Positions 37,514 through 48,474 of a DNA stretch of 64,000 nucleotides are shown here, piece after piece (position 1 is the stretch's first letter; the number at the start of each line of letters is the position of its first letter). Made by a program: the position numbers and the translations under genes. Under the pieces are notes generated by a model that made no database searches, was not told where the DNA came from, and was given only the letters and a program-made list of their open reading frames with translations. Source of the stretch: Falsiruegeria mediterranea M17 (lineage in GTDB: Bacteria; Pseudomonadota; Alphaproteobacteria; Rhodobacterales; Rhodobacteraceae); the NCBI RefSeq assembly GCF_900302455.1, contig NZ_ONZG01000002.1, positions 310,001-374,000 on the forward strand, written 5' to 3'.

Positions 37514-37951
37514 ATGTTTCGTGATTTTCTGACGCGGCTGACGCAGCCGGAGCCCGCCCAACTTCCTGACGAAGATGCCCGCCTTGCGCTGACCGCGCTT
37601 TTGGTGCGCATTGCCAAGTCGGACAATGATTACGCCCCCGAAGAGATGGCCCGCATCGACCGCATCACCGCGGCGCGCTATGGCATGTCTCCGTTCGAGG
37701 CGGCAGGTCTGCGCTCGCAGGCCGAAGGGTTGGAGTCCGAAGCCCCTGACACCGTGCGATTTACCCGCGCGATCAAGGATGCAGTGGCTTATGAGGACCG
37801 TCGCGCCGTGGTCGAGGCGCTGTGGTCAGTGGTTCTGGCCGATGGCGAACGAGCCGAGGAAGAAGACGCGCTGCTACGCCTGGTGGCCAACCTGCTGGGT
37901 GTGAATGACCGCGATTCGGCGCTTGCCCGGCAAAAAGCGGCCCGTTCATGA
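37514..37951 (+). CDS. TerB-family protein, paralogue 2
   Basis: 145 residues. It aligns end to end with the preceding gene (LALTALLVRIAKSDNDYAPEEMARIDRI against LALGALLVRVAQSDRDYQLEEISLIDRI; LWSVVLADGE against LWEVVLADGE). The ATG at 37514 begins MFRDFLTRLTQPEP, parallel to MLKKFFQAFRPSDP of paralogue 1. The last codon overlaps the start of the PhnD-like gene as ATGA, so those two are translationally coupled. Confidence 0.85.
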   Translation: MFRDFLTRLTQPEPAQLPDEDARLALTALLVRIAKSDNDYAPEEMARIDRITAARYGMSPFEAAGLRSQAEGLESEAPDTVRFTRAIKDAVAYEDRRAVVEALWSVVLADGERAEEEDALLRLVANLLGVNDRDSALARQKAARS

Positions 37952-38685
37952 CCGCGATGCTCGGCATGTATGACATGCCCGCCCTGCAAGACGCCAATGA
38001 CACCTTTTGGGCCGCGATCCGCGCGCATTTGGGGGACGGCCCCGAGACCCTGGACCGGAACCGGGACTTCTGGGACATCTGGCATGACCCAAGCATGGTG
38101 TTTTCACAGACCTGCGGTATGCCCTATCGCACCAAGCTGCATGGCACGGTTACCTTGATCGGTACGCCGGATTATGGCCTGCCCGACTGCCCACCCGGCT
38201 ACTACTACTCGACCTTTGTGGCGCGCTCGGATGATCCCCGTCCGCTGGACGAATTGGTGACCGGCACATTCGCCTATAACGAGCCGTTGTCGCAATCGGG
38301 ATGGGCGGCGCCAACGACACATCTGCACTCTCTGGGATTGACGGTGGACACTCTACTGCAATCAGGTGGCCATGCCCTGTCGGCTCAGGCGGTGGCCGAT
38401 GAGCGCGCGGACCTTGCCGCCTTGGATGCGCTGACATGGGTTCTGCTAACCGAACATCAACCGGATCTGGCGGGCAAACTGCGCGTTGTGACCAGCACGG
38501 ACCCCACGCCAACCTTGCCTTACGTCACCGCCCAATCCCGCGATCCGGCCCCGATCGCGGCCGCCGTTCGGGCCGCGATTGCCGCGATGGATGAGGACAC
38601 GCGGCAGTTGCTGCACATCCGGGGGCTGATCGACATACCCGCAGAGGTGTATTTGGCTGTCCCAACACCGCCTTCGCCCGACTAA
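37948..38685 (+). CDS. PhnD-like periplasmic-binding-fold protein without a signal peptide
   Basis: 245 residues resembling the PhnD/PF12974 substrate-binding fold: MLGMYDMPALQDANDTFWAAI, GMPYRTKLHGTVTLIGTPDY, YYSTFVARSD and GHALSAQAVADERADLAALDAL fit the two-lobe ligand-binding pattern. There is no export signal, and no ABC permease or ATPase is directly adjacent. It may be a cytoplasmic ligand-binding protein or use the fold enzymatically. Coupled to the TerB paralogue by an ATGA overlap. Confidence 0.78.
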   Translation: MTAMLGMYDMPALQDANDTFWAAIRAHLGDGPETLDRNRDFWDIWHDPSMVFSQTCGMPYRTKLHGTVTLIGTPDYGLPDCPPGYYYSTFVARSDDPRPLDELVTGTFAYNEPLSQSGWAAPTTHLHSLGLTVDTLLQSGGHALSAQAVADERADLAALDALTWVLLTEHQPDLAGKLRVVTSTDPTPTLPYVTAQSRDPAPIAAAVRAAIAAMDEDTRQLLHIRGLIDIPAEVYLAVPTPPSPD

Positions 38686-38809
38686 AAAGACAGTTCCGTA
38701 TGGTCAATTCGGCGCTTTCCGGGGCGAAACATTCGTTTTGCAAGTTGCATTGCGACAAAAATTCAGCCCTATTAGCCCATCAAAACCGGTACAAACCTTC
38801 GGATTCCAC

Positions 38810-39586
38810 GTGTCAGACACACCTCCTGTCATCCAGATCAAGAACCTGCACAAAAGCTTTGGCCAGCTCGAAGTGCTCAAAGGTGTCGATATCACGGCCC
38901 ACCGGGGCGACGTTGTTTCACTGATCGGATCGTCAGGCTCGGGAAAGTCCACACTGCTGCGCTGCTGCAACCTGTTGGAAGACAGCCAACAGGGCGAGAT
39001 CCTGTTCAAGGGCGAGCCGGTCGCATGGAAGGGTGAACACCACGGGCGTCGCCCTGCCGATCCCAAACAGGTTCTGCGCATCCGCACAAACCTGTCGATG
39101 GTGTTCCAGCAGTTCAACCTGTGGGCTCATATGACCATCCTGCAAAACGTGATGGAGGCGCCGGTCACAGTACTGGGCCGCGACAAAGCCGAGGTCGAGG
39201 AAAGCGCGCGCAAGTACCTGCATCAGGTGGGCATTGGCGACAAATGCGACGTCTATCCGGCACAGCTGTCGGGTGGCCAGCAACAGCGTGCCGCCATCGC
39301 GCGCGGCTTGTGCATGGAGCCAGAGGCGCTGCTCTTTGACGAGCCCACATCGGCGCTTGACCCCGAGCTGGAACAGGAAGTGATCAAGGTTATCAAGGAT
39401 CTGGCGGCCGAGGGGCGCACGATGATCATCGTGACCCATGACATGAAAATGGCCGCTGATATTTCCAGCCACGTGGTGTTCCTGCACCAGGGGCTGATCG
39501 AAGAAGAGGGCACGCCGGACGAGTTGTTCGGCGCACCCAAATCCGAACGCCTGCAGGGCTTTCTTTCCGCCACGCAGGCTGCATAA
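38810..39586 (+). CDS. Polar amino-acid ABC transporter, ATP-binding protein
   Basis: 258 residues. Walker A GSSGSGKST, Q-loop FQQFNLWAHMT, signature LSGGQQQR, Walker B ALLFDEPTSALD, and His switch IVTHDM are all intact. The FGQLEVLKGVDI and FLHQGLIEEEG blocks place it in the HisP/GlnQ/OccP group. GTG 38810 is chosen as the start because the family begins just there; no convincing ribosome-binding site is visible, so the start is uncertain. It is first in the order ATPase, binding protein, permease, permease. Confidence 0.92.
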   Translation: MSDTPPVIQIKNLHKSFGQLEVLKGVDITAHRGDVVSLIGSSGSGKSTLLRCCNLLEDSQQGEILFKGEPVAWKGEHHGRRPADPKQVLRIRTNLSMVFQQFNLWAHMTILQNVMEAPVTVLGRDKAEVEESARKYLHQVGIGDKCDVYPAQLSGGQQQRAAIARGLCMEPEALLFDEPTSALDPELEQEVIKVIKDLAAEGRTMIIVTHDMKMAADISSHVVFLHQGLIEEEGTPDELFGAPKSERLQGFLSATQAA

Positions 39587-39619
39587 ACTGTAAAAACAAC
39601 CACCAACGGGGAGCTACAG

Positions 39620-40342
39620 ATGAAAAAACTGATCCTGACCACGGCTGCACTGGCACTGACTGCCGGTATGGCGATGGCCGACACCGTCCGCATGGGCACC
39701 GAAGGCGCCTACCCTCCGTACAACTTCATCAATGACGCCGGCGAGATCGACGGCTTTGAGCGTGAGTTGGGCGATGAGATGTGCAAACGCGCCGGTCTGA
39801 CCTGCGAGTGGGTCAAGAACGACTGGGATTCGATCATTCCGAACCTGGTCTCGGGCAACTACGACACCATCATCGCCGGCATGTCGATCACCGCCGAGCG
39901 TGACGAAGTCATCGACTTCACTCAGAACTATCAGCCCCCCGCGGCGTCGGCCTATGTTGCCGCGGCCGAAGGTGCTGACGTGACCGGTGGCGTTGTGGCT
40001 GCTCAGACCGCAACCATCCAGGCGGGTCACGTGGCCGAATCCGGTGCAACTCTGGTTGAGTTTGCAACTCCGGAAGAAACAATCGCAGCCGTACGCAACG
40101 GCGAAGCAGATGCCGTTCTGGCCGACCGTGACTATCTGACCCCGTTGGTCGAAGAATCGAACGGCGAGCTGGTCTTTGTTGGCGACCCGGTTCCGCTGGG
40201 CGGTGGCGTTGGCATGGGCCTGCGTGAATCCGACGGCGAACTGCGCGGCAAGTTTGACGCAGCCATCACCTCGATGAAAGAGGACGGCTCGCTGAACGCA
40301 TTGCTGATCAAGTGGTTCGGCGAAGACACCCGCACCTACTGA
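39620..40342 (+). CDS. Polar amino-acid ABC transporter, substrate-binding protein
   Basis: 240 residues. Signal peptide MKKLILTTAALALTAGMAMA with cleavage before DTVRMG. The mature SBP_bac_3 domain shows GTEGAYPPYNFIND, GFERELGDEMCKRAGLTCEWV, WDSIIPNLVSGNYDTIIAGMSIT and EVIDFTQNY. This resembles the lysine/arginine/ornithine/histidine group (ArgT/HisJ, OccT). Two Cys residues (CKRAGLTC) match the conserved disulfide of that group. GGGGAGCTACAG precedes the ATG. A hairpin follows, which may limit read-through to the permeases. Confidence 0.93.
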   Translation: MKKLILTTAALALTAGMAMADTVRMGTEGAYPPYNFINDAGEIDGFERELGDEMCKRAGLTCEWVKNDWDSIIPNLVSGNYDTIIAGMSITAERDEVIDFTQNYQPPAASAYVAAAEGADVTGGVVAAQTATIQAGHVAESGATLVEFATPEETIAAVRNGEADAVLADRDYLTPLVEESNGELVFVGDPVPLGGGVGMGLRESDGELRGKFDAAITSMKEDGSLNALLIKWFGEDTRTY

Positions 40343-40355
40343 TCTTTGCGTCTTG

Positions 40356-40389
40356 CGGTCCCGCACATCATGTGCGGGACCGTTTCTTT
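40356..40389 (+). terminator. Strong hairpin between binding-protein and permease genes
   Basis: CGGTCCCGCACA-tca-TGTGCGGGACCG is a perfect 12-bp stem followed by TTTCTTT. Between binding-protein and permease genes such hairpins usually act as partial terminators or protect the upstream mRNA, giving more binding protein than permease. Confidence 0.8.
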
Positions 40390-40437
40390 GGCTGATCGTG
40401 CCCGATCGCCAAACCTGCCCCGCCCAAGGCTGACTTG

Positions 40438-41325
40438 ATGTTTTCCTACTGCGCCGATCCTGACACGCTTGGCACCTTTCGTTGGTTCTCGTGCTATCTG
40501 ACCAACGGCGTGCACATGTCGTTCTACCTGTCCTTCATCAAGGTTCTGGCCCTTCTGGCCATCACCGCGCCCGTGGCGCTGGCCTTTGGCTTTGCGGGGG
40601 CCATGTCGGCCCGGTCGCATATTCCGCCCGTAAGCTGGCTGGGCAAGGGGTACATCGCCATCGTGCGCGGTGTGCCGGACATTGCGTTTTTCCTGTTCTT
40701 TGTCATCGCATTGGATCAGGCATTCGAATGGACGCGGCACCAAATCCTCTGCCCCGATTGGACTGACCCGATCCGGCAAGGCAACGATTTTCTGGTCTGC
40801 GCGCAGGCCAAACTGCCCCTGGGCACCTCGCCCGAATGGGTCCATGAAACATACGGCTTTTTCCTCGCCGTCATCACCTTTGCCATCGTCTTTGGCGCCT
40901 TTGCTGCCAACGTGCTCTTTGGCGGCATGCGTGCCGTGCCCCATGCCCAACTGGAAACGGCTGAGGCTTACGGCATGTCCCGCCGCCAGACGTTCTGGCG
41001 CGTTCTGGTACCACAGATGTGGGTCTATGCCCTGCCCGGTCTGTCGAACCTCTGGATGGTGTTGATCAAAGCCACGCCGCTGTTGTTCCTGCTGGGCGTC
41101 GAAGACATCGTCTATTGGGCGCGCGAGCTGGGTGGCACCAAGACATCCAAGTTCACCGCGTACCCGCATGGTGACTGGCGCATGTGGTACTTCTTGTTCC
41201 TGCTGGTGTTCTACCTGGCCTTCACCCGTGTGTCCGAGATCGCGCTGGAGCGTCTGATGCAAAAGCTCAGCCACGGACAGGCCACCACAGGCGGAGAAGC
41301 GCAACGCAAGGAGGCCGTGGCATGA
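40438..41325 (+). CDS. Polar amino-acid ABC transporter, permease (HisQ-like)
   Basis: 295 residues with about five helices. The inner-membrane EAA loop is AVPHAQLETAEAYGMSRRQTFWRVLVPQM; the N-terminal region has the HEQ family block (AFGFAGAMSARS..., IVRGVPDIAFFLFF). It carries a long extracytoplasmic insert with two Cys (ILCPDWTDPIRQGNDFLVC), longer than in HisQ. The start is ATG 40438. The stop overlaps the next permease start as ATGA. Confidence 0.9.
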   Translation: MFSYCADPDTLGTFRWFSCYLTNGVHMSFYLSFIKVLALLAITAPVALAFGFAGAMSARSHIPPVSWLGKGYIAIVRGVPDIAFFLFFVIALDQAFEWTRHQILCPDWTDPIRQGNDFLVCAQAKLPLGTSPEWVHETYGFFLAVITFAIVFGAFAANVLFGGMRAVPHAQLETAEAYGMSRRQTFWRVLVPQMWVYALPGLSNLWMVLIKATPLLFLLGVEDIVYWARELGGTKTSKFTAYPHGDWRMWYFLFLLVFYLAFTRVSEIALERLMQKLSHGQATTGGEAQRKEAVA

Positions 41326-42128
41326 GCTGTCTTCAGACCATCCAGGACTATGGCCTGCGTTCCCTTGGCTATGGCGAGCGCCTGCTGCCCAAGACCGACT
41401 TTACCTTATGCGAACAGTTCACCCTGATCGGGTCAGGCATGATCTGGAACGTCTATTTCGGCGTGATGGCACTGGTGACCGGGTTTTTCTTTGCCACCGC
41501 CCTGGCGCTTGGCAAGGCATCGAGCAACATCTGGCTGCGTAAACCGTCGGAATGGTTCATCTTCATCTTCCGAGGCTCGCCGCTCTTTATTCAGTTCTTC
41601 TTTGCCTACTTCTTCTTCCTGTCTCTGAAGAAGGCTTATCCGATGTTTGACGCCTTCACCTCGGCCTGGCTGGGGGCGCTGATTGTGCTGTTCTTCAACA
41701 CTGCTGCCTATTCGGGTGAGATCTTTTACGGCGCGCTGCGCTCGATCCCCAAGGGCGACGTCGAGGCGGCGGATGCCTATGGCATGTCGGGCTGGGCGCG
41801 GTTCCGCCGCATCATCTGGCCCACCATGCTGCGTCTGGCCTGGCCTGCCTACACGAACGAGGCGATCTTTCTGTTCCACGCCACGACGCTCGTGTTCTTT
41901 TCGGCTTTCCCGGCCTGGCGGCAAAAGGGCGATGCGCTGTATTACGCCAGCTATTTTGCGGACAAGACGTTCAACCCGTTTGTGCCCTACCCTATTCTCG
42001 CCTTCTACTTCATCCTGCTCACGCTGGTGATCGTGGGCATCTTTGGCATGATCAACACGCGGCTGAACCGGCATCTGCCCAAAGCCAGGAAGGCCAAGAT
42101 GCGCTTTCGCCCCAACCTGGCGCGCTAA
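41322..42128 (+). CDS. Polar amino-acid ABC transporter, permease (HisM-like)
   Basis: 268 residues with about five helices; EAA loop SIPKGDVEAADAYGMSGWARFRRIIWPTM and the preceding FIFIFRGSPLFIQFFFAYFFF are the permease signatures. The N-terminal 40 residues (MSCLQTIQDYGLRSLGYGERLL) are an extra soluble stretch. Forms the heterodimeric channel with the preceding permease. It converges with the LysR gene, the two stop regions overlapping by four bases. Confidence 0.9.
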   Translation: MSCLQTIQDYGLRSLGYGERLLPKTDFTLCEQFTLIGSGMIWNVYFGVMALVTGFFFATALALGKASSNIWLRKPSEWFIFIFRGSPLFIQFFFAYFFFLSLKKAYPMFDAFTSAWLGALIVLFFNTAAYSGEIFYGALRSIPKGDVEAADAYGMSGWARFRRIIWPTMLRLAWPAYTNEAIFLFHATTLVFFSAFPAWRQKGDALYYASYFADKTFNPFVPYPILAFYFILLTLVIVGIFGMINTRLNRHLPKARKAKMRFRPNLAR

Positions 42129-43054
42129 GAGGTCAGCGTGACCTCAGCGGCGAACTCTGCCCGCACAACGTCGCGGATCAGATCTGCAAAGCGCGCAAAA
42201 GCTGGTGGTTCGCCGCTGGCTGCGCGCCAGGCCAACCCAATCTGCCGATAAAGCGGCGGGCGCAGATCCAAGACCGAGACATCGGGATCACGCAGGTTGA
42301 CCTCGGACCGCACGTAGAGCGCAGGCAGCAGCGTCACCCCCATGCCCAACGACACCATCTGGCGCAGCGCATCTAGGCTCGTGCCCTCGAAATCATTCCG
42401 CAAGGTGGCGCCGGTATCGACGCCCAACCCCGTGACCTGAGTATGCAGCGCAAACGCCGGACTGAGGCTGAGCAGGCTCTCCCCCGACAGATCCGCCCGC
42501 ACCGCCTGTTTGCGCTCGGCCAACGGATGCTCTCGCGCCACTGCCAGGCTGAGCGGTTCGCGAAAAAGGGTGCGCAGCCGAAGGTTATCACCGGGCACCG
42601 GCAGCTGTGTCAGAATCATGTCGTGACGCCCTGCGATCAGATCCTCAACCAATTCCTTGGGGGTGCTGTCGCGGATCACCAGCTTGAGGTCAGGATAGCT
42701 CTGATGCAACTGCCGCAGCACCCGCGGCAGCAGGTAAGGCCCGATCGTTGGTGACGACCCCAAACGAAGCGTGCCCGACATCTCGGACCGCGACGGGCCC
42801 GCGACATGCACCAACCTGTCGACCTCGCGCAGGACCCGTTCGGCCTGCGCCGCCGCCTCTCGACCGGTGGGGGTCAGGATCAAACCGCTGCGCTTGCGCT
42901 CGATCAATCTGGCGCCAAGGGCCTCTTCCAGCGCAGCGATCTGCAGGCTGAGCGACGGTTGACTGATCCCCAGCTGTTGCGCCGCGCGACGGTATTGGAG
43001 CGTGGAACTGAGCACGGCAAAGTACCGGATCTGGCGCAGGGTGATGTTGGACAC
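42125..43054 (-). CDS. LysR-family transcriptional regulator
   Basis: 309 residues. Winged HTH at about 1-60 (NITLRQIRYFAVLSSTLQYRRAAQQLGISQPSLSLQIAALEE) and a two-lobe effector domain at about 90-300. The region resembles the OxyR/CynR branch, but I see no cysteine in the effector domain, so it is not a peroxide-sensing OxyR. GTG 43054 is preferred over ATG 43075 because AGAGGGGGA lies eight bases before it. It may regulate the adjacent ABC transporter or the divergent small genes; this is inference from position. Confidence 0.88.
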   Translation of the reverse strand: MSNITLRQIRYFAVLSSTLQYRRAAQQLGISQPSLSLQIAALEEALGARLIERKRSGLILTPTGREAAAQAERVLREVDRLVHVAGPSRSEMSGTLRLGSSPTIGPYLLPRVLRQLHQSYPDLKLVIRDSTPKELVEDLIAGRHDMILTQLPVPGDNLRLRTLFREPLSLAVAREHPLAERKQAVRADLSGESLLSLSPAFALHTQVTGLGVDTGATLRNDFEGTSLDALRQMVSLGMGVTLLPALYVRSEVNLRDPDVSVLDLRPPLYRQIGLAWRAASGEPPAFARFADLIRDVVRAEFAAEVTLTS

Positions 43055-43193
43055 GCGAATTCCCCCTCTCCCCATAGATAGATATTTCCTATCTTACTTT
43101 CCATTATCATTGCCTTCATCCCGCATGAAACAAACCCATCTTTGTCTTGTGATCTTCACCGGTCACACCGTTTCATGCAGTAAGGAGGCTTTC

Positions 43194-43735: not shown

Positions 43736-44956
43736 ATGGATCGCCGAACCTTTATCGCGCAGGCCTGCGCGACAGCTCTTGCCGGGTTCACACCGCTTGC
43801 CGGGACTGCGGCCGAGGGCCGCCGCCCAAACGGGTTTATCCGCACCAATTGGAGCCGCGATCCCTATAGCCGGGGGGCCTATTCCTTTTTTGCCAAGGGA
43901 TCGAAGCGACGCCATACAAGGGACCTCGCAGAGCCCGTGGGCGCCCGTGTCTTCTTTGCCGGAGAGGCCGCGCATCCGGACTACAACAGCACCGTTCACG
44001 CGGCTTTGGAATCAGGACAATTGGCCGCGCGGGCTGTGCGACGCGCCAAGCACAAACGCGTCATTGTCATTGGGGCCGGCATCAGCGGCCTTGCGGCAGC
44101 ACGGCAGCTTGCCGACGCCGGTTTCGATGTCGTGGTGCTTGAGGCTCGGGGCCGCATAGGCGGACGGATCTGGACCGACAGGCGATTGCGGCAGCCCCTT
44201 GATCTGGGGGCCAGCTGGCTGCACGGCACGCGCGGCAATCCATTGACCGGTCTCACCCGGTCTCAGGGCATGCCCCACCGCGTCACTGGCGACAGCTATG
44301 TCATCCGGGGCAAGGATGGGCGCCGTATGCGGGACGCCGACGCACCCGATTGGCTGGACCAGGTGGCTGAGGTGCAGCACGACGCCGGGGCCAGCCTGAA
44401 CGAATTGAACCTGAGCGCCTATCTGACAGATAACGACTATGACGGCGACGAGTGGATTTTCCCCAAAGGCTATGACGCAGTGTTGCGCGCCTTTAACCGC
44501 GGTCTCGACATCCGCCTGAAAACGGATGTGCGCCAGATCCAGATGACATCAACCGGTGTGCAGCTGCGGGATGCCGCAGGCACAGAGTTCGCAGCGGACG
44601 CGGTCATCGTTTCGGTCCCCTTGGGCGTTCTGAAAACCGATCACATCCGCTTTGAGCCCGCCCTGCCCAAGCCAAAGAGGCAGGCGATCGCCAAGCTTGG
44701 CATGGGACTGTTGGACAAGGTCTATCTGCGCTATGACGCCGTGTTCTGGGACGCTGACACCACTTGGATCATGACGCCCGAGAACGGCCTGCCAAAGGGG
44801 CAATTCAACCAATGGCTTAACCTAGCGCCTTACATCGGCGCGCCCCTTCTTGTGGCCTTCAACGGAGCACAGCCTGCCCGCGACCTTGCTCGCGCATCGG
44901 ACAAGCAGATCCTGAATATGGCGCAACAGACCCTGGATCGGGCCTATCCGGGATGA
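43736..44956 (+). CDS. Circularly permuted flavin amine oxidase with Tat signal
   Basis: 406 residues. A twin-arginine signal ([20 protein letters not shown]) predicts export. Residues about 33-102 hold what is normally the C-terminal end of flavin amine oxidases: [14 protein letters not shown] (38-51), the FAD-site [20 protein letters not shown] (73-92). Only then comes the usual N-terminus: Rossmann [20 protein letters not shown] (111-130), [25 protein letters not shown] (158-164). The substrate domain follows, and the protein stops at DRAYPG (401-406), just where canonical enzymes would continue into the WSxDPYSxG block. No copy of that block follows. The frame is intact. It precedes the glutamine-synthetase-like genes, so oxidation of an amine or polyamine is a reasonable guess. 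Confidence 0.88.
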
Positions 44957-45050: not shown

Positions 45051-46370
45051 ATGGACCTTGCACAGTTTGACACCTTTCGCGTCGCCGCCGTTGACCTGAA
45101 CGGGCAACTTCGGGGCAAACGTGTTCCCGCAATTTACGCCGGAAAGCTGGACAAAGGCGCCGTACGCATCCCGTTCTCGGCGCTGAATGTGGACCTGTGG
45201 GGGGCGGATATCGAAAACAGCCCCCTGGTCTTTGAAAGCGGTGATGCCGACGGCGTTCTGCGCCCGACCGAACGGGGAGCCGTGCCGACGCCCTGGCTGG
45301 CGCAGCCTTCGGCGATGGTGCCGATGGCGCTCTATCACGATGACGGCGCGCGCTTTGACGGTGACCCGCGCCATGCTTTGGCCGATGTGCTGGATCGCTA
45401 CGCCGCGCGCGGGTGGACCGTGATCGCGGCAACCGAGTTGGAATTCACCCTGATCGACGACAGTGGTGATACCCCGCAACCACCCCACAGCCCAGTGACG
45501 GGACGCGCGCTTGAAGATATGGCGGTGCTGTCCATGGCCGAGCTTGACGCTTTTGACGAGTTCTTTTCCGACCTCTACGCAGGGTGCGCCGATATGGGCA
45601 TCCCGGCGCAGACCGCGATATCCGAATCCGGGATCGGCCAGTTCGAGGTCAACCTGAACCATCAGGACGCGATGCGATGCGCCGATGATACCCTGTTGTT
45701 CAAGGTTTTGGTGCGCGGCTTGGCCCGCAAACACGGGTTTGCCGCCACCTTCATGGCCAAACCCTATGACGACGATGCGGGCAACGGAATGCATGTGCAT
45801 TACTCCGTTGTTGATGCGGATGGCGTGAATGTCTTTGACAATGGCGGCCCTGACGGCACCGACCTGCTGCGCCAAGCCGTGGCTGGATGTCTGGCCGCAA
45901 TGCCCGATTGTACGCTGATCTTTGCGCCCCATGGCAATTCCTACACGCGGCTGGTTCCTGGCGCGCATGCCCCAACCGGGGCGTGCTGGGCCTATGAAAA
46001 CCGCACCGCAGCCCTGCGCATTCCCGGCGGCCCGTCTGCTGCACGTCGGATCGAGCACCGCGTCGCAGGCGGTGACACCAACCCCTATCTGATGCTGGCC
46101 GCCGTGTTGGGGGCCGCGATGGTCGGGATTGAGGACGCAATGGAGCCCCCCACCCCAATCTCTGGCAATGCCTATGCCCTGGATGGCGTGCCACAATTGG
46201 CTCCTGACTGGCCCTCGGCGGTTTCGCGCTTTGAGGACAGCGATTTAGTGGCACGCATCTTTTCCGCCGACCTGATCCGCAACTTGGCGATGACCAAACG
46301 GCAAGAGATCACGCTCTTTGCCGAACGTCCGACGGAACGTCACTGGCTCAGCTACCTGGAAACCGTCTGA
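45051..46370 (+). CDS. Glutamine synthetase family protein (gamma-glutamyl-amine ligase-like) 1
   Basis: 439 residues. A beta-Grasp N-terminus (FRVAAVDLNGQLRGKRVPA) and the catalytic domain with TELEFTLID (metal Glu), GIGQFEVNL, GNGMHVHYSV, SYTRLVPGAHAP and YENRTAALRIP. The N-terminal domain and sequence drift match PuuA/GlnT-like ligases that couple glutamate to amines rather than ammonia. No adenylylation loop is evident. ATG 45051 follows GGAGCGTCCC. It forms a unit behind palindrome site 1, ahead of an amidotransferase and a second ligase. Confidence 0.88.
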   Translation: MDLAQFDTFRVAAVDLNGQLRGKRVPAIYAGKLDKGAVRIPFSALNVDLWGADIENSPLVFESGDADGVLRPTERGAVPTPWLAQPSAMVPMALYHDDGARFDGDPRHALADVLDRYAARGWTVIAATELEFTLIDDSGDTPQPPHSPVTGRALEDMAVLSMAELDAFDEFFSDLYAGCADMGIPAQTAISESGIGQFEVNLNHQDAMRCADDTLLFKVLVRGLARKHGFAATFMAKPYDDDAGNGMHVHYSVVDADGVNVFDNGGPDGTDLLRQAVAGCLAAMPDCTLIFAPHGNSYTRLVPGAHAPTGACWAYENRTAALRIPGGPSAARRIEHRVAGGDTNPYLMLAAVLGAAMVGIEDAMEPPTPISGNAYALDGVPQLAPDWPSAVSRFEDSDLVARIFSADLIRNLAMTKRQEITLFAERPTERHWLSYLETV

Positions 46371-46408
46371 CGCCCTTGCGAGCAATGCCTTGCTCGGGTA
46401 ACGTAGAA

Positions 46409-46418
46409 TTTGATCAAA
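46409..46418. promoter_or_regulatory. TTTGATCAAA palindrome, site 2
   Basis: GAATTTGATCAAATTTGGTGAC is 11 bases from the ATG of the amidotransferase gene, so a bound protein would block the start or the promoter's downstream edge. It shares the TTTGATCAAAT-T-GTGAC pattern with site 1 (44982). Confidence 0.6.
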
Positions 46419-46429
46419 TTTGGTGACCC

Positions 46430-47119
46430 ATGAAAATCGGTATTCTGATAACCGGCCACGCCCCGGATGCCCTGATCGGCAAAACGGGCGACTATGACAA
46501 GATCTTTGCCCGGCTTCTGAGCGGTCACGGACATGACTTCGACTTTGCCGCCTATGCGGTTGTCGACAATGAATTCCCCGATGGCGCCGAGGATTGCGAC
46601 GGGTGGCTGCTGACTGGTTCAAAACATGGCGCCTACGAAGACCACGACTGGATCCCGCCGCTGGAACAGCTGATCCGCGACATCCACGCCCGCGGACTGC
46701 CCATGATCGGCGTCTGTTTTGGCCATCAGATCATTGCCCAGGCACTAGGTGGCAAAGTCGAGAAGTTCAGCGGCGGATGGGCCATCGGCCCCACCGAGTA
46801 TGACTATGGCGACCGTCAGATGACCATGAACGCCTGGCATCAGGATCAGGTGACCGAATTGCCCGACGGGGCAAAGGTGCTTGCAGGCAACGATTTTTGC
46901 AAGAACGCGGTGCTGGCCTATGGCGACACCACCTGGACCGTGCAGCCGCACCCTGAGTTCGACAACGGATTTGTCGACGGCCTGATCAAGGCGCGCGGGC
47001 GCGGGCTGGTTCCCGACACCATTCTCAACGCCGCCGAAACCCGGTTGGCAGATACCATCGACAGCCCGCAGATCGCGCGCGAGATGGCCGTTTTTTTTGC
47101 AAAAGCAGGTGCAGCATGA
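46430..47119 (+). CDS. Class I glutamine amidotransferase-like protein
   Basis: 229 residues. Catalytic Cys96 in MIGVCFGHQIIAQALGG and the His-Glu pair in VQPHPEF near residue 175 are intact. It is a stand-alone GATase1 domain of the YfeJ/GuaA-like kind, distinct from the PuuD peptidase C26 fold, but could serve the same step: hydrolysis of gamma-glutamyl intermediates made by the flanking ligases. Its stop overlaps the next start (ATGA). Confidence 0.88.
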   Translation: MKIGILITGHAPDALIGKTGDYDKIFARLLSGHGHDFDFAAYAVVDNEFPDGAEDCDGWLLTGSKHGAYEDHDWIPPLEQLIRDIHARGLPMIGVCFGHQIIAQALGGKVEKFSGGWAIGPTEYDYGDRQMTMNAWHQDQVTELPDGAKVLAGNDFCKNAVLAYGDTTWTVQPHPEFDNGFVDGLIKARGRGLVPDTILNAAETRLADTIDSPQIAREMAVFFAKAGAA

Positions 47120-48474
47120 CCGATTGGAAAGACAATCTCCCCGAAGCCGCAAAAACCTATCTGGACGGGAGGCGCCTAGATGAGGTCGAATGCGTGATCT
47201 CGGACTTGCCCGGCATCGCGCGTGGCAAAGCGGTGCCTGCCAGCAAATTTGCCAAACAGGACTATTTCCACCTGCCCGACAGCATCTTCTACCAGACCAT
47301 CACTGGCGACTGGGGAGAGGCCGCTGGCGACGACGGCTTCATTGAAAAAGACATGATCCTGAAGCCCGACATGTCTACTGCAACCGCTGCGCCCTGGACC
47401 GGCGATTGGACGTTGCAAGTGATCCACGATGCCTATGATCGCGACGGCGAGGCGATCCCGTACTCGCCGCGCAACGTGCTCAAACGCGTCGTGCAGCTCT
47501 ATCGGGACCAAGGATGGGAGCCGATCGTGGCCCCTGAGATGGAGTTCTTCCTGGTCGCCCGCAACGTGGATCCGGCCAAAGAGATCGAGCCGATGATGGG
47601 CCGTTCGGGTCGCCCGGCGGCGGCGCGACAGGCCTATTCGATGACGGCCGTGGACGAGTTTGGTCCGGTGATCGACGACATCTATGACTTTGCCGAACAC
47701 CAGGGGTTTGAGATTGACGGCATCACACAGGAAGGCGGCGCCGGTCAGCTGGAGATCAACCTGCTGCACGGCGATCCGGTCAAGCTGGCGGATGAGGTGT
47801 TCTATTTCAAGCGCCTGATCCGCGAGGCAGCCTTGCGCCACGACTGCTTTGCCACATTCATGGCCAAACCGATCGAGGATGAGCCCGGCAGCGCCATGCA
47901 CATTCACCATTCGATCCTGGACATTGAAACGGGCCAGAACATCTTTGTCGGGCCACAATGTGGCGAGACCGACGCCTTTTATCATTTCATCGCCGGGCTG
48001 CAGAACCACCTGCCCTCTGGCCTTGCGGTCATGGCGCCATATGTGAACTCTTACCGTCGCTACGTGAAAGACCATGCCGCGCCGATCAACCTGGAATGGG
48101 CGCGTGACAACCGCACAACCGGCATTCGAGTGCCCTTGTCCGGCCCGGCAGCGCGCCGGGTCGAAAACCGGATCGCGGGCATGGACTGCAACCCTTACCT
48201 GGGCATCGCGGTCTCGCTGGCGTGCGGTTATCTAGGCCTGACCGAGCAACTGCGCCCGCGTCGGCAATTCTATGGCGATGCCTATGAGGGCGAAGGCGAC
48301 ATCCCACAGGTTCTTGGCCAAGCTCTGGACATGTTCGACGGCGCCAAGGCCCTGCATGAGGTGCTGGGCCCTGAATTTGCGCGGGTCTTTTCCATCGTCA
48401 AACGCGCCGAATACGAAGAGTTTTTGCAAGTGATCTCGCCCTGGGAGCGCGAACACTTGCTGCTGAACGTCTGA
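47116..48474 (+). CDS. Glutamine synthetase family protein (gamma-glutamyl-amine ligase-like) 2
   Basis: 452 residues. N-terminal VECVISDLPGIARGKAVPASKF, then PEMEFFLVA, GGAGQLEINLLHGD, GSAMHIHHSIL, NSYRRYVKDHAAP and RDNRTTGIRVPLSGPAARRVENR. These cover the ATP, metal and glutamate sites of the PuuA-like ligases. It differs clearly from the first copy (about one third identical by eye), so the two are old paralogues, perhaps with different amine substrates. Coupled to the amidotransferase by ATGA. Confidence 0.88.
   Translation: MTDWKDNLPEAAKTYLDGRRLDEVECVISDLPGIARGKAVPASKFAKQDYFHLPDSIFYQTITGDWGEAAGDDGFIEKDMILKPDMSTATAAPWTGDWTLQVIHDAYDRDGEAIPYSPRNVLKRVVQLYRDQGWEPIVAPEMEFFLVARNVDPAKEIEPMMGRSGRPAAARQAYSMTAVDEFGPVIDDIYDFAEHQGFEIDGITQEGGAGQLEINLLHGDPVKLADEVFYFKRLIREAALRHDCFATFMAKPIEDEPGSAMHIHHSILDIETGQNIFVGPQCGETDAFYHFIAGLQNHLPSGLAVMAPYVNSYRRYVKDHAAPINLEWARDNRTTGIRVPLSGPAARRVENRIAGMDCNPYLGIAVSLACGYLGLTEQLRPRRQFYGDAYEGEGDIPQVLGQALDMFDGAKALHEVLGPEFARVFSIVKRAEYEEFLQVISPWEREHLLLNV

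Follow-up and report, generated by a model that had tools for sequence, protein, structure and literature searches.

The permuted gene and its domain order

The window, i.e. the whole 64-kb stretch of DNA analysed here, contains at 43736-44956 on the forward strand one uninterrupted open reading frame (ORF), for which the coordinates, the stop and the motif positions agreed with an earlier sequence-only reading of this DNA. Judged from its sequence, the product appears to be an amine-oxidising enzyme of the MAO/LSD1 superfamily with the last part moved to the front of the chain (Table 1). Residues 1-29 were read as a putative twin-arginine signal on the basis of the Tat consensus. All main motifs of the PF01593 enzymes (LSD1/LSD2, spermine oxidase, maize polyamine oxidase (PAO), MAO) are present, namely Rossmann GAGxxG, GGR, GASWxHG, GxGxxxK, WxxDPYSxGxYS and FxGEA. 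These enzymes were also the best PDB sequence and fold matches, but their parts stand in the opposite order and they have about 45 aa more substrate domain than the proteins of the window's group.

Table 1. Features of the permuted gene and its downstream neighbours in the window
Feature	Position	Strand	Basis or remark
Circularly permuted flavin amine oxidase gene	43736..44956	+	406 aa, stop included
Residues 1-29, twin-arginine (Tat-type) signal	43736..43822	+	MDRRTFIAQ, hydrophobic stretch, TAA before mature chain
Residues 30-102, canonical C-terminal FAD block, placed first	43823..44041	+	PF01593 positions 372-442 of 443, E 1.5e-16
Residues 103-106, junction of old C-terminus and Rossmann strand 1, almost linker-free	44042..44053	+	Alignment A5
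Residues 107-406, Rossmann half (GAGISG) and shortened substrate domain, end DRAYPG	44054..44953	+	PF01593 up to position 366 of 443
Codon of K328 in LGMGLLDK	44717..44719	+	Motif aligned in sequence with LSD1/LSD2 lysine
Glutamine-synthetase-like ligase, class I amidotransferase, second glutamine-synthetase-like ligase	45051..48474	+	Downstream, same strand

The whole protein scored 236.7 bits against PF01593 (gathering cut-off 19.8) in three matching stretches. Searched separately, residues 30-102 matched with 61.2 bits, and residues 103-406 matched in two stretches, the best of them with 183.9 bits and ending at profile position 366. The Rossmann half and the C-terminal FAD block are thus both present, and the separate match bore out that the block at the front is the true C-terminal block. 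The order of the two parts is reversed with respect to the canonical order of PF01593 (Rossmann first, block last), and we therefore filed the protein as a permuted variant of this superfamily. Rejoining the chain in canonical order raised the Pfam score from 236.7 to 254.2 bits, with a single stretch spanning profile positions 180 to 442, and also raised the scores against the PDB sequences of LSD2 (from 149.0 to 159.9 bits) and maize PAO (from 106.7 to 119.4 bits). The circular permutation proposed in the sequence-only reading is supported by this order of profile positions, 372-442 followed by those up to 366, and by the homologues described below. The expectation that the rejoined chain would align without gaps failed, as the alignment has one deletion of about 45 aa in the substrate domain.

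The sequence-only reading had seen no second copy of the block, and tblastn (E<=0.05) found no second copy of either half: each half occurred once in the window, and in one place each in 20 of 20 loci, including the window's own stretch (L055). A normal C-terminal block at the end of the chain was ruled out by tblastn, by the PF01593 matches of the halves and by a structure alignment of a weak model.

Distribution of the permuted order

The homologues were found to share the permuted order, which we tabulated in 40 distinct ORFs, 25 with a Tat-type N-terminus and 15 without a signal; L025 (without a start) and L032 (cut by a contig end) are incomplete. Among 394 genomes of the window's family, 15 matches were obtained at E<=1e-60, all of them permuted, including L032. 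The window's class yielded 4 matches at 1e-30 among 385 genomes, of which 3, including the window's own, were permuted and one (L040) was canonical, and the phylum yielded 11 matches at 1e-20 among 398 genomes (5 permuted, 6 canonical). Around genome G827, the class gave one permuted and one canonical match at 1e-30 among 185 genomes, the order 6 permuted and one canonical among 7 junction-profile matches at 1e-20 in 194 genomes, and the family (f194) 11 permuted and 2 canonical among 13 matches in 119 genomes. All 4 matches among 17 genomes of the family of G542 were permuted. As counted in these samples, which overlap between family, class, order and phylum, permuted genes are patchy, with canonical relatives beside them. 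The window's own genome also encodes a canonical-order relative, on contig C20.

Carriers include Tropicibacter, Roseibium (two), Roseobacter and a Henriciella metagenome-assembled genome; all five copies are permuted, the Henriciella copy with a frame break. Three scans of viral contigs gave no permuted relative: L091 is canonical, and L092, cut by a contig end, shows the block last. L091, an IMG/VR contig that may be host DNA, encodes its canonical-order amine oxidase with a twin-arginine-like N-terminus. On plasmids, 224 and 42 records matched; three of these, two from Haloarcula and one from Nostoc, reached a cover of 80% or more, and all three were canonical. On a Synechocystis plasmid (L043, 2884-3797), an FAD oxidoreductase is annotated as two short overlapping genes and is probably broken.

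Two groups of permuted proteins

The Tat-type group belongs in its named members to the Alphaproteobacteria, and the signal-less group to another class of the same phylum. A twin-arginine N-terminus was found in 24 of the 25 Tat-type ORFs, with L025, in which the start is missing, as the exception; the twin-arginine N-terminus of the window protein, RR followed by a hydrophobic stretch, is supported. The hydrophobic maximum ranged from 1.14 to 2.06 in the Tat-type group versus -1.53 to 1.02 in the signal-less group. Seven of the 15 signal-less ORFs have an RR in frame upstream, which we took as chance since the true start is unknown. The sequence-only reading had regarded the permutation as stabilised behind a Tat signal. 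This did not hold, as 15 of the 40 permuted ORFs lack a clear signal-like N-terminus, and the permutation is therefore not dependent on Tat.

The groups also differ in the substrate domain. From the Rossmann strand to the first GY we counted 134-138 aa in all Tat-type ORFs but L034 (24 of 25; 119 in L034) and 167-183 aa in all 12 measurable ORFs of the 15 signal-less ones, compared with 169-187 aa in 13 of 14 measurable canonical relatives (of 18; 266 in L051). About 45 aa of substrate domain are hence missing in the Tat-type group. The distance from the W motif to the Rossmann strand was 69-75 aa in all 40 permuted ORFs, with exactly 70 aa in 21 of 25 Tat-type and 8 of 15 signal-less ORFs, and that from the W motif to the C-terminus of canonical relatives was 64-68 aa in 16 of 18 (80 and 92 in the other two). 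These distances indicate that the old ends were joined almost without linker, the former C-terminal helix leading nearly straight into Rossmann strand 1. In alignment A5 the junction was gapless between 5 of 6 diverse members, the sixth (L087) being three aa longer. L087, L088 and L101 make up a permuted subgroup that has diverged strongly: its motif reads WNxNPxFxGVYS instead of WxxDPYSxGxYS, and its junction is longer (72-73 aa).

Structure models and catalytic features

Two AlphaFold models were obtained, both weak (mean pLDDT 48.4 and 57.2; pTM 0.51 and 0.60). Foldseek and VIA-align searches with these models gave LSD2, PAO, LSD1 and nicotine oxidoreductases as best matches, and the modelled Rossmann half and substrate domain (residues 107-406) aligned to PAO, LSD1, LSD2 and NicA2. 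Residues 102-406 extended to residue 379 in maize PAO, 737 in LSD1 and 406 in NicA2, which argues that no normal C-terminal block is hidden at the end of the chain. Because the models are weak, we infer the closed fold of the permuted chain rather than read it from them.

K328 lines up in sequence with the lysine of LSD1 and LSD2, and we take it to be the position of the catalytic-region lysine of LSD1/PAO near flavin N5. The motif lysine was recovered by pattern in 38 of 40 permuted ORFs (24 of 25 Tat-type, 14 of 15 signal-less). In MAOs of the human type a Cys in the C-terminal block binds FAD covalently. The window protein differs from these in lacking the block cysteine, with SRGAYSF and no Cys in residues 30-102.

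Origin of the permutation

In a maximum-likelihood tree of the rejoined chains (48 rows), the Tat-type clade was supported with 99/97 and the signal-less clade with 87/87, and the best tree contained two changes of order. Trees in which all permuted rows were held together were not rejected (p-AU 0.090 with 48 rows, 0.111 with 44 rows) and made up 0 to 1% of the bootstrap trees; with the permuted rows grouped without L087, p-AU was 0.033 in the 44-row tree. A single origin is favoured by the near-equal junction and the shared cut loop, whereas the tree is more in line with two. We put forward only tentatively, and at less than even confidence, that the fold underwent circular permutation on two occasions, each time at the same loop: in a line that became Tat-exported and lost part of the substrate domain, and in a line without signal that belongs to another class. 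If this is true, the fold has one preferred place for reopening the chain. The Roseibium genes are nested among genes of the window's family in the 48-row tree, which suggests horizontal transfer.

A tandem duplication followed by loss of the outer halves, which the sequence-only reading offered as the origin, is plausible. Five candidate regions with block plus Rossmann motif and a stop inside were inspected for tandem canonical genes as intermediates: L094 and L095 have one canonical gene each, and in L096, L097 and L098 the scan showed no gene for a flavin amine oxidase. The nearest canonical neighbours of the permuted genes in the trees are L040, L041, L044 and L091, which are canonical in order and have a twin-arginine-like N-terminus. 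Their linker, IPDPxxxxITRW, is similar to the beginning of the mature sequence in permuted L036, but they differ from the permuted proteins in having the C-terminal block last and a full-length substrate domain.

Gene neighbourhood

All 4 same-genus loci have the ligase and amidotransferase genes downstream of the oxidase (Table 1), whereas tblastn at E<=1e-10 gave no hit to these genes at 20 other permuted loci, some of them with short or cut flanks. A possible operon of the oxidase with these genes is accordingly confined to the own genus. The class I amidotransferase gene overlaps that of the second ligase by 4 bases, and a DegT-type aminotransferase follows. From their sequences, the genes at 45051-48474 could possibly encode a gamma-glutamyl-amine pathway; the two ligases scored 168 and 164.5 bits against NCBIfam GGputSyn, far below its cut-off of 650. 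The arrangement suggests amine nitrogen use via gamma-glutamyl amides in the own genus. An all-against-all ORF comparison of 22 loci found no neighbour family in more than 4 loci, and this, together with the lack of hits to the ligase genes at the 20 other permuted loci, led us to reject a conserved operon. As the neighbours are not conserved beyond the genus, they point only weakly to a pathway.

Upstream on the same strand, 37948-42128 encodes a phosphonate-type binding protein, an amino-acid-type ABC ATPase, a family-3 solute-binding protein and two permease-like ORFs, which lie upstream on the same strand in 4 of 4 same-genus loci; a LysR gene (42125-43075) was present in 2 of these 4. L068 and L070 are deep-branching permuted genes that lie a few kb from CxxCH proteins and have several other neighbours in common.

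Proposed function and alternatives

We consider it probable that the window protein belongs to the flavin amine oxidase superfamily as a natural circular permutant, that it folds, binds FAD and oxidises an amine, and that in the window's group it is exported by Tat. The segment closing the FAD site is encoded first; the Rossmann half comes next and the substrate domain last, an order kept in 40 ORFs. The natural N- and C-termini would both lie in the FAD domain, so that joining them with hardly any linker would leave the fold intact, and the cut would fall in the loop that connects the final helix of the substrate domain with the strand returning to the FAD domain. The chain would then fold, bind FAD and oxidise an amine like its canonical relatives; FAD binding is predicted to be non-covalent because the SRGAYS motif has no Cys. 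The loss of about 45 aa in the substrate domain could change or abolish amine oxidation.

Three other explanations were weighed. A rearranged pseudogene, or an artefact of gene calling or assembly, is conceivable in view of the frame break in one homologue, L025 from a metagenome-assembled genome, but its probability is negligible given that 40 distinct ORFs have the permuted order in common and that dN/dS is 0.10-0.15. Against three same-genus genes the window gene gave ratios of 0.153, 0.107 and 0.098, the last two being rough as the underlying dS is high (1.46 and 2.96), and a fourth, more distant pair was saturated. The reordered layout is a real conserved variant, not a broken gene. The displaced block might instead complete the FAD site of a neighbouring chain, giving a domain-swapped dimer rather than a closed monomer, and models as weak as these do not settle where the block lies; the near-linker-free junction (69-75 aa, 40/40) is nevertheless close to a direct joining of canonical ends (64-68 aa, 16/18), which makes such a dimer very improbable.

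The same permuted fold could also act as a periplasmic dehydrogenase passing electrons to a c-type cytochrome, like NicA2 and Pnao, which likewise carry an N-terminal twin-arginine signal on an FAD amine oxidase, as described in PMC12224317. NicA2/Pnao-type enzymes differ from the window protein in having an adjacent cytochrome c gene; by a rough pattern filter, none was found within 5 kb in the window. With this filter, and with some flanks short or cut by contig ends, 21 of 24 permuted loci, the window included, had no signal-bearing CxxCH ORF within 5 kb. Such ORFs occurred near L064, L068 and L070, but that of L064 is doubtful and those of L068 and L070 resemble cbb3-oxidase subunits. According to PMC12224317, most of the Tat-type amine oxidases tested that have no cytochrome c gene next to them reacted well with O2, and one reacted poorly; together with the result of the pattern filter, these data lead us, despite the one exception, to favour O2 as acceptor and to regard electron transfer to a cytochrome as unlikely. 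For a Tat-exported amine oxidase of the window's group, the likeliest role is that of an FAD enzyme which would be folded and loaded with FAD in the cytoplasm, exported in the folded state and active on a presumed amine substrate in the periplasm, with O2 as the most likely electron acceptor. Within its own genus, the enzyme may serve the use of amine nitrogen by way of gamma-glutamyl ligases.

Relation to known proteins and significance

Few flavoenzyme folds have been studied as much as the MAO/PAO/LSD1 fold. In the literature searched, with preprints and most subscription papers outside its scope, we found no account of a permuted enzyme of this fold. The main text of PMC12224317 on NicA2/Pnao-type enzymes has no occurrence of 'permut'. 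Circular permutation with the fold or binding site kept has been described for SAM methyltransferases (PMC1282579) and for the flavin-reductase split barrel (PMC13327496); the chains are reordered there too, but folds and chemistry are different.

Surveys based on whole-chain alignment that are blind to order may misplace or drop permuted proteins. With its new termini, the permutant provides a scaffold for fusions and biosensors. As a conserved natural permutant, it shows that synthesis can start with the C-terminal FAD segment, and makes it testable whether synthesis order has an effect on FAD loading ahead of Tat export.
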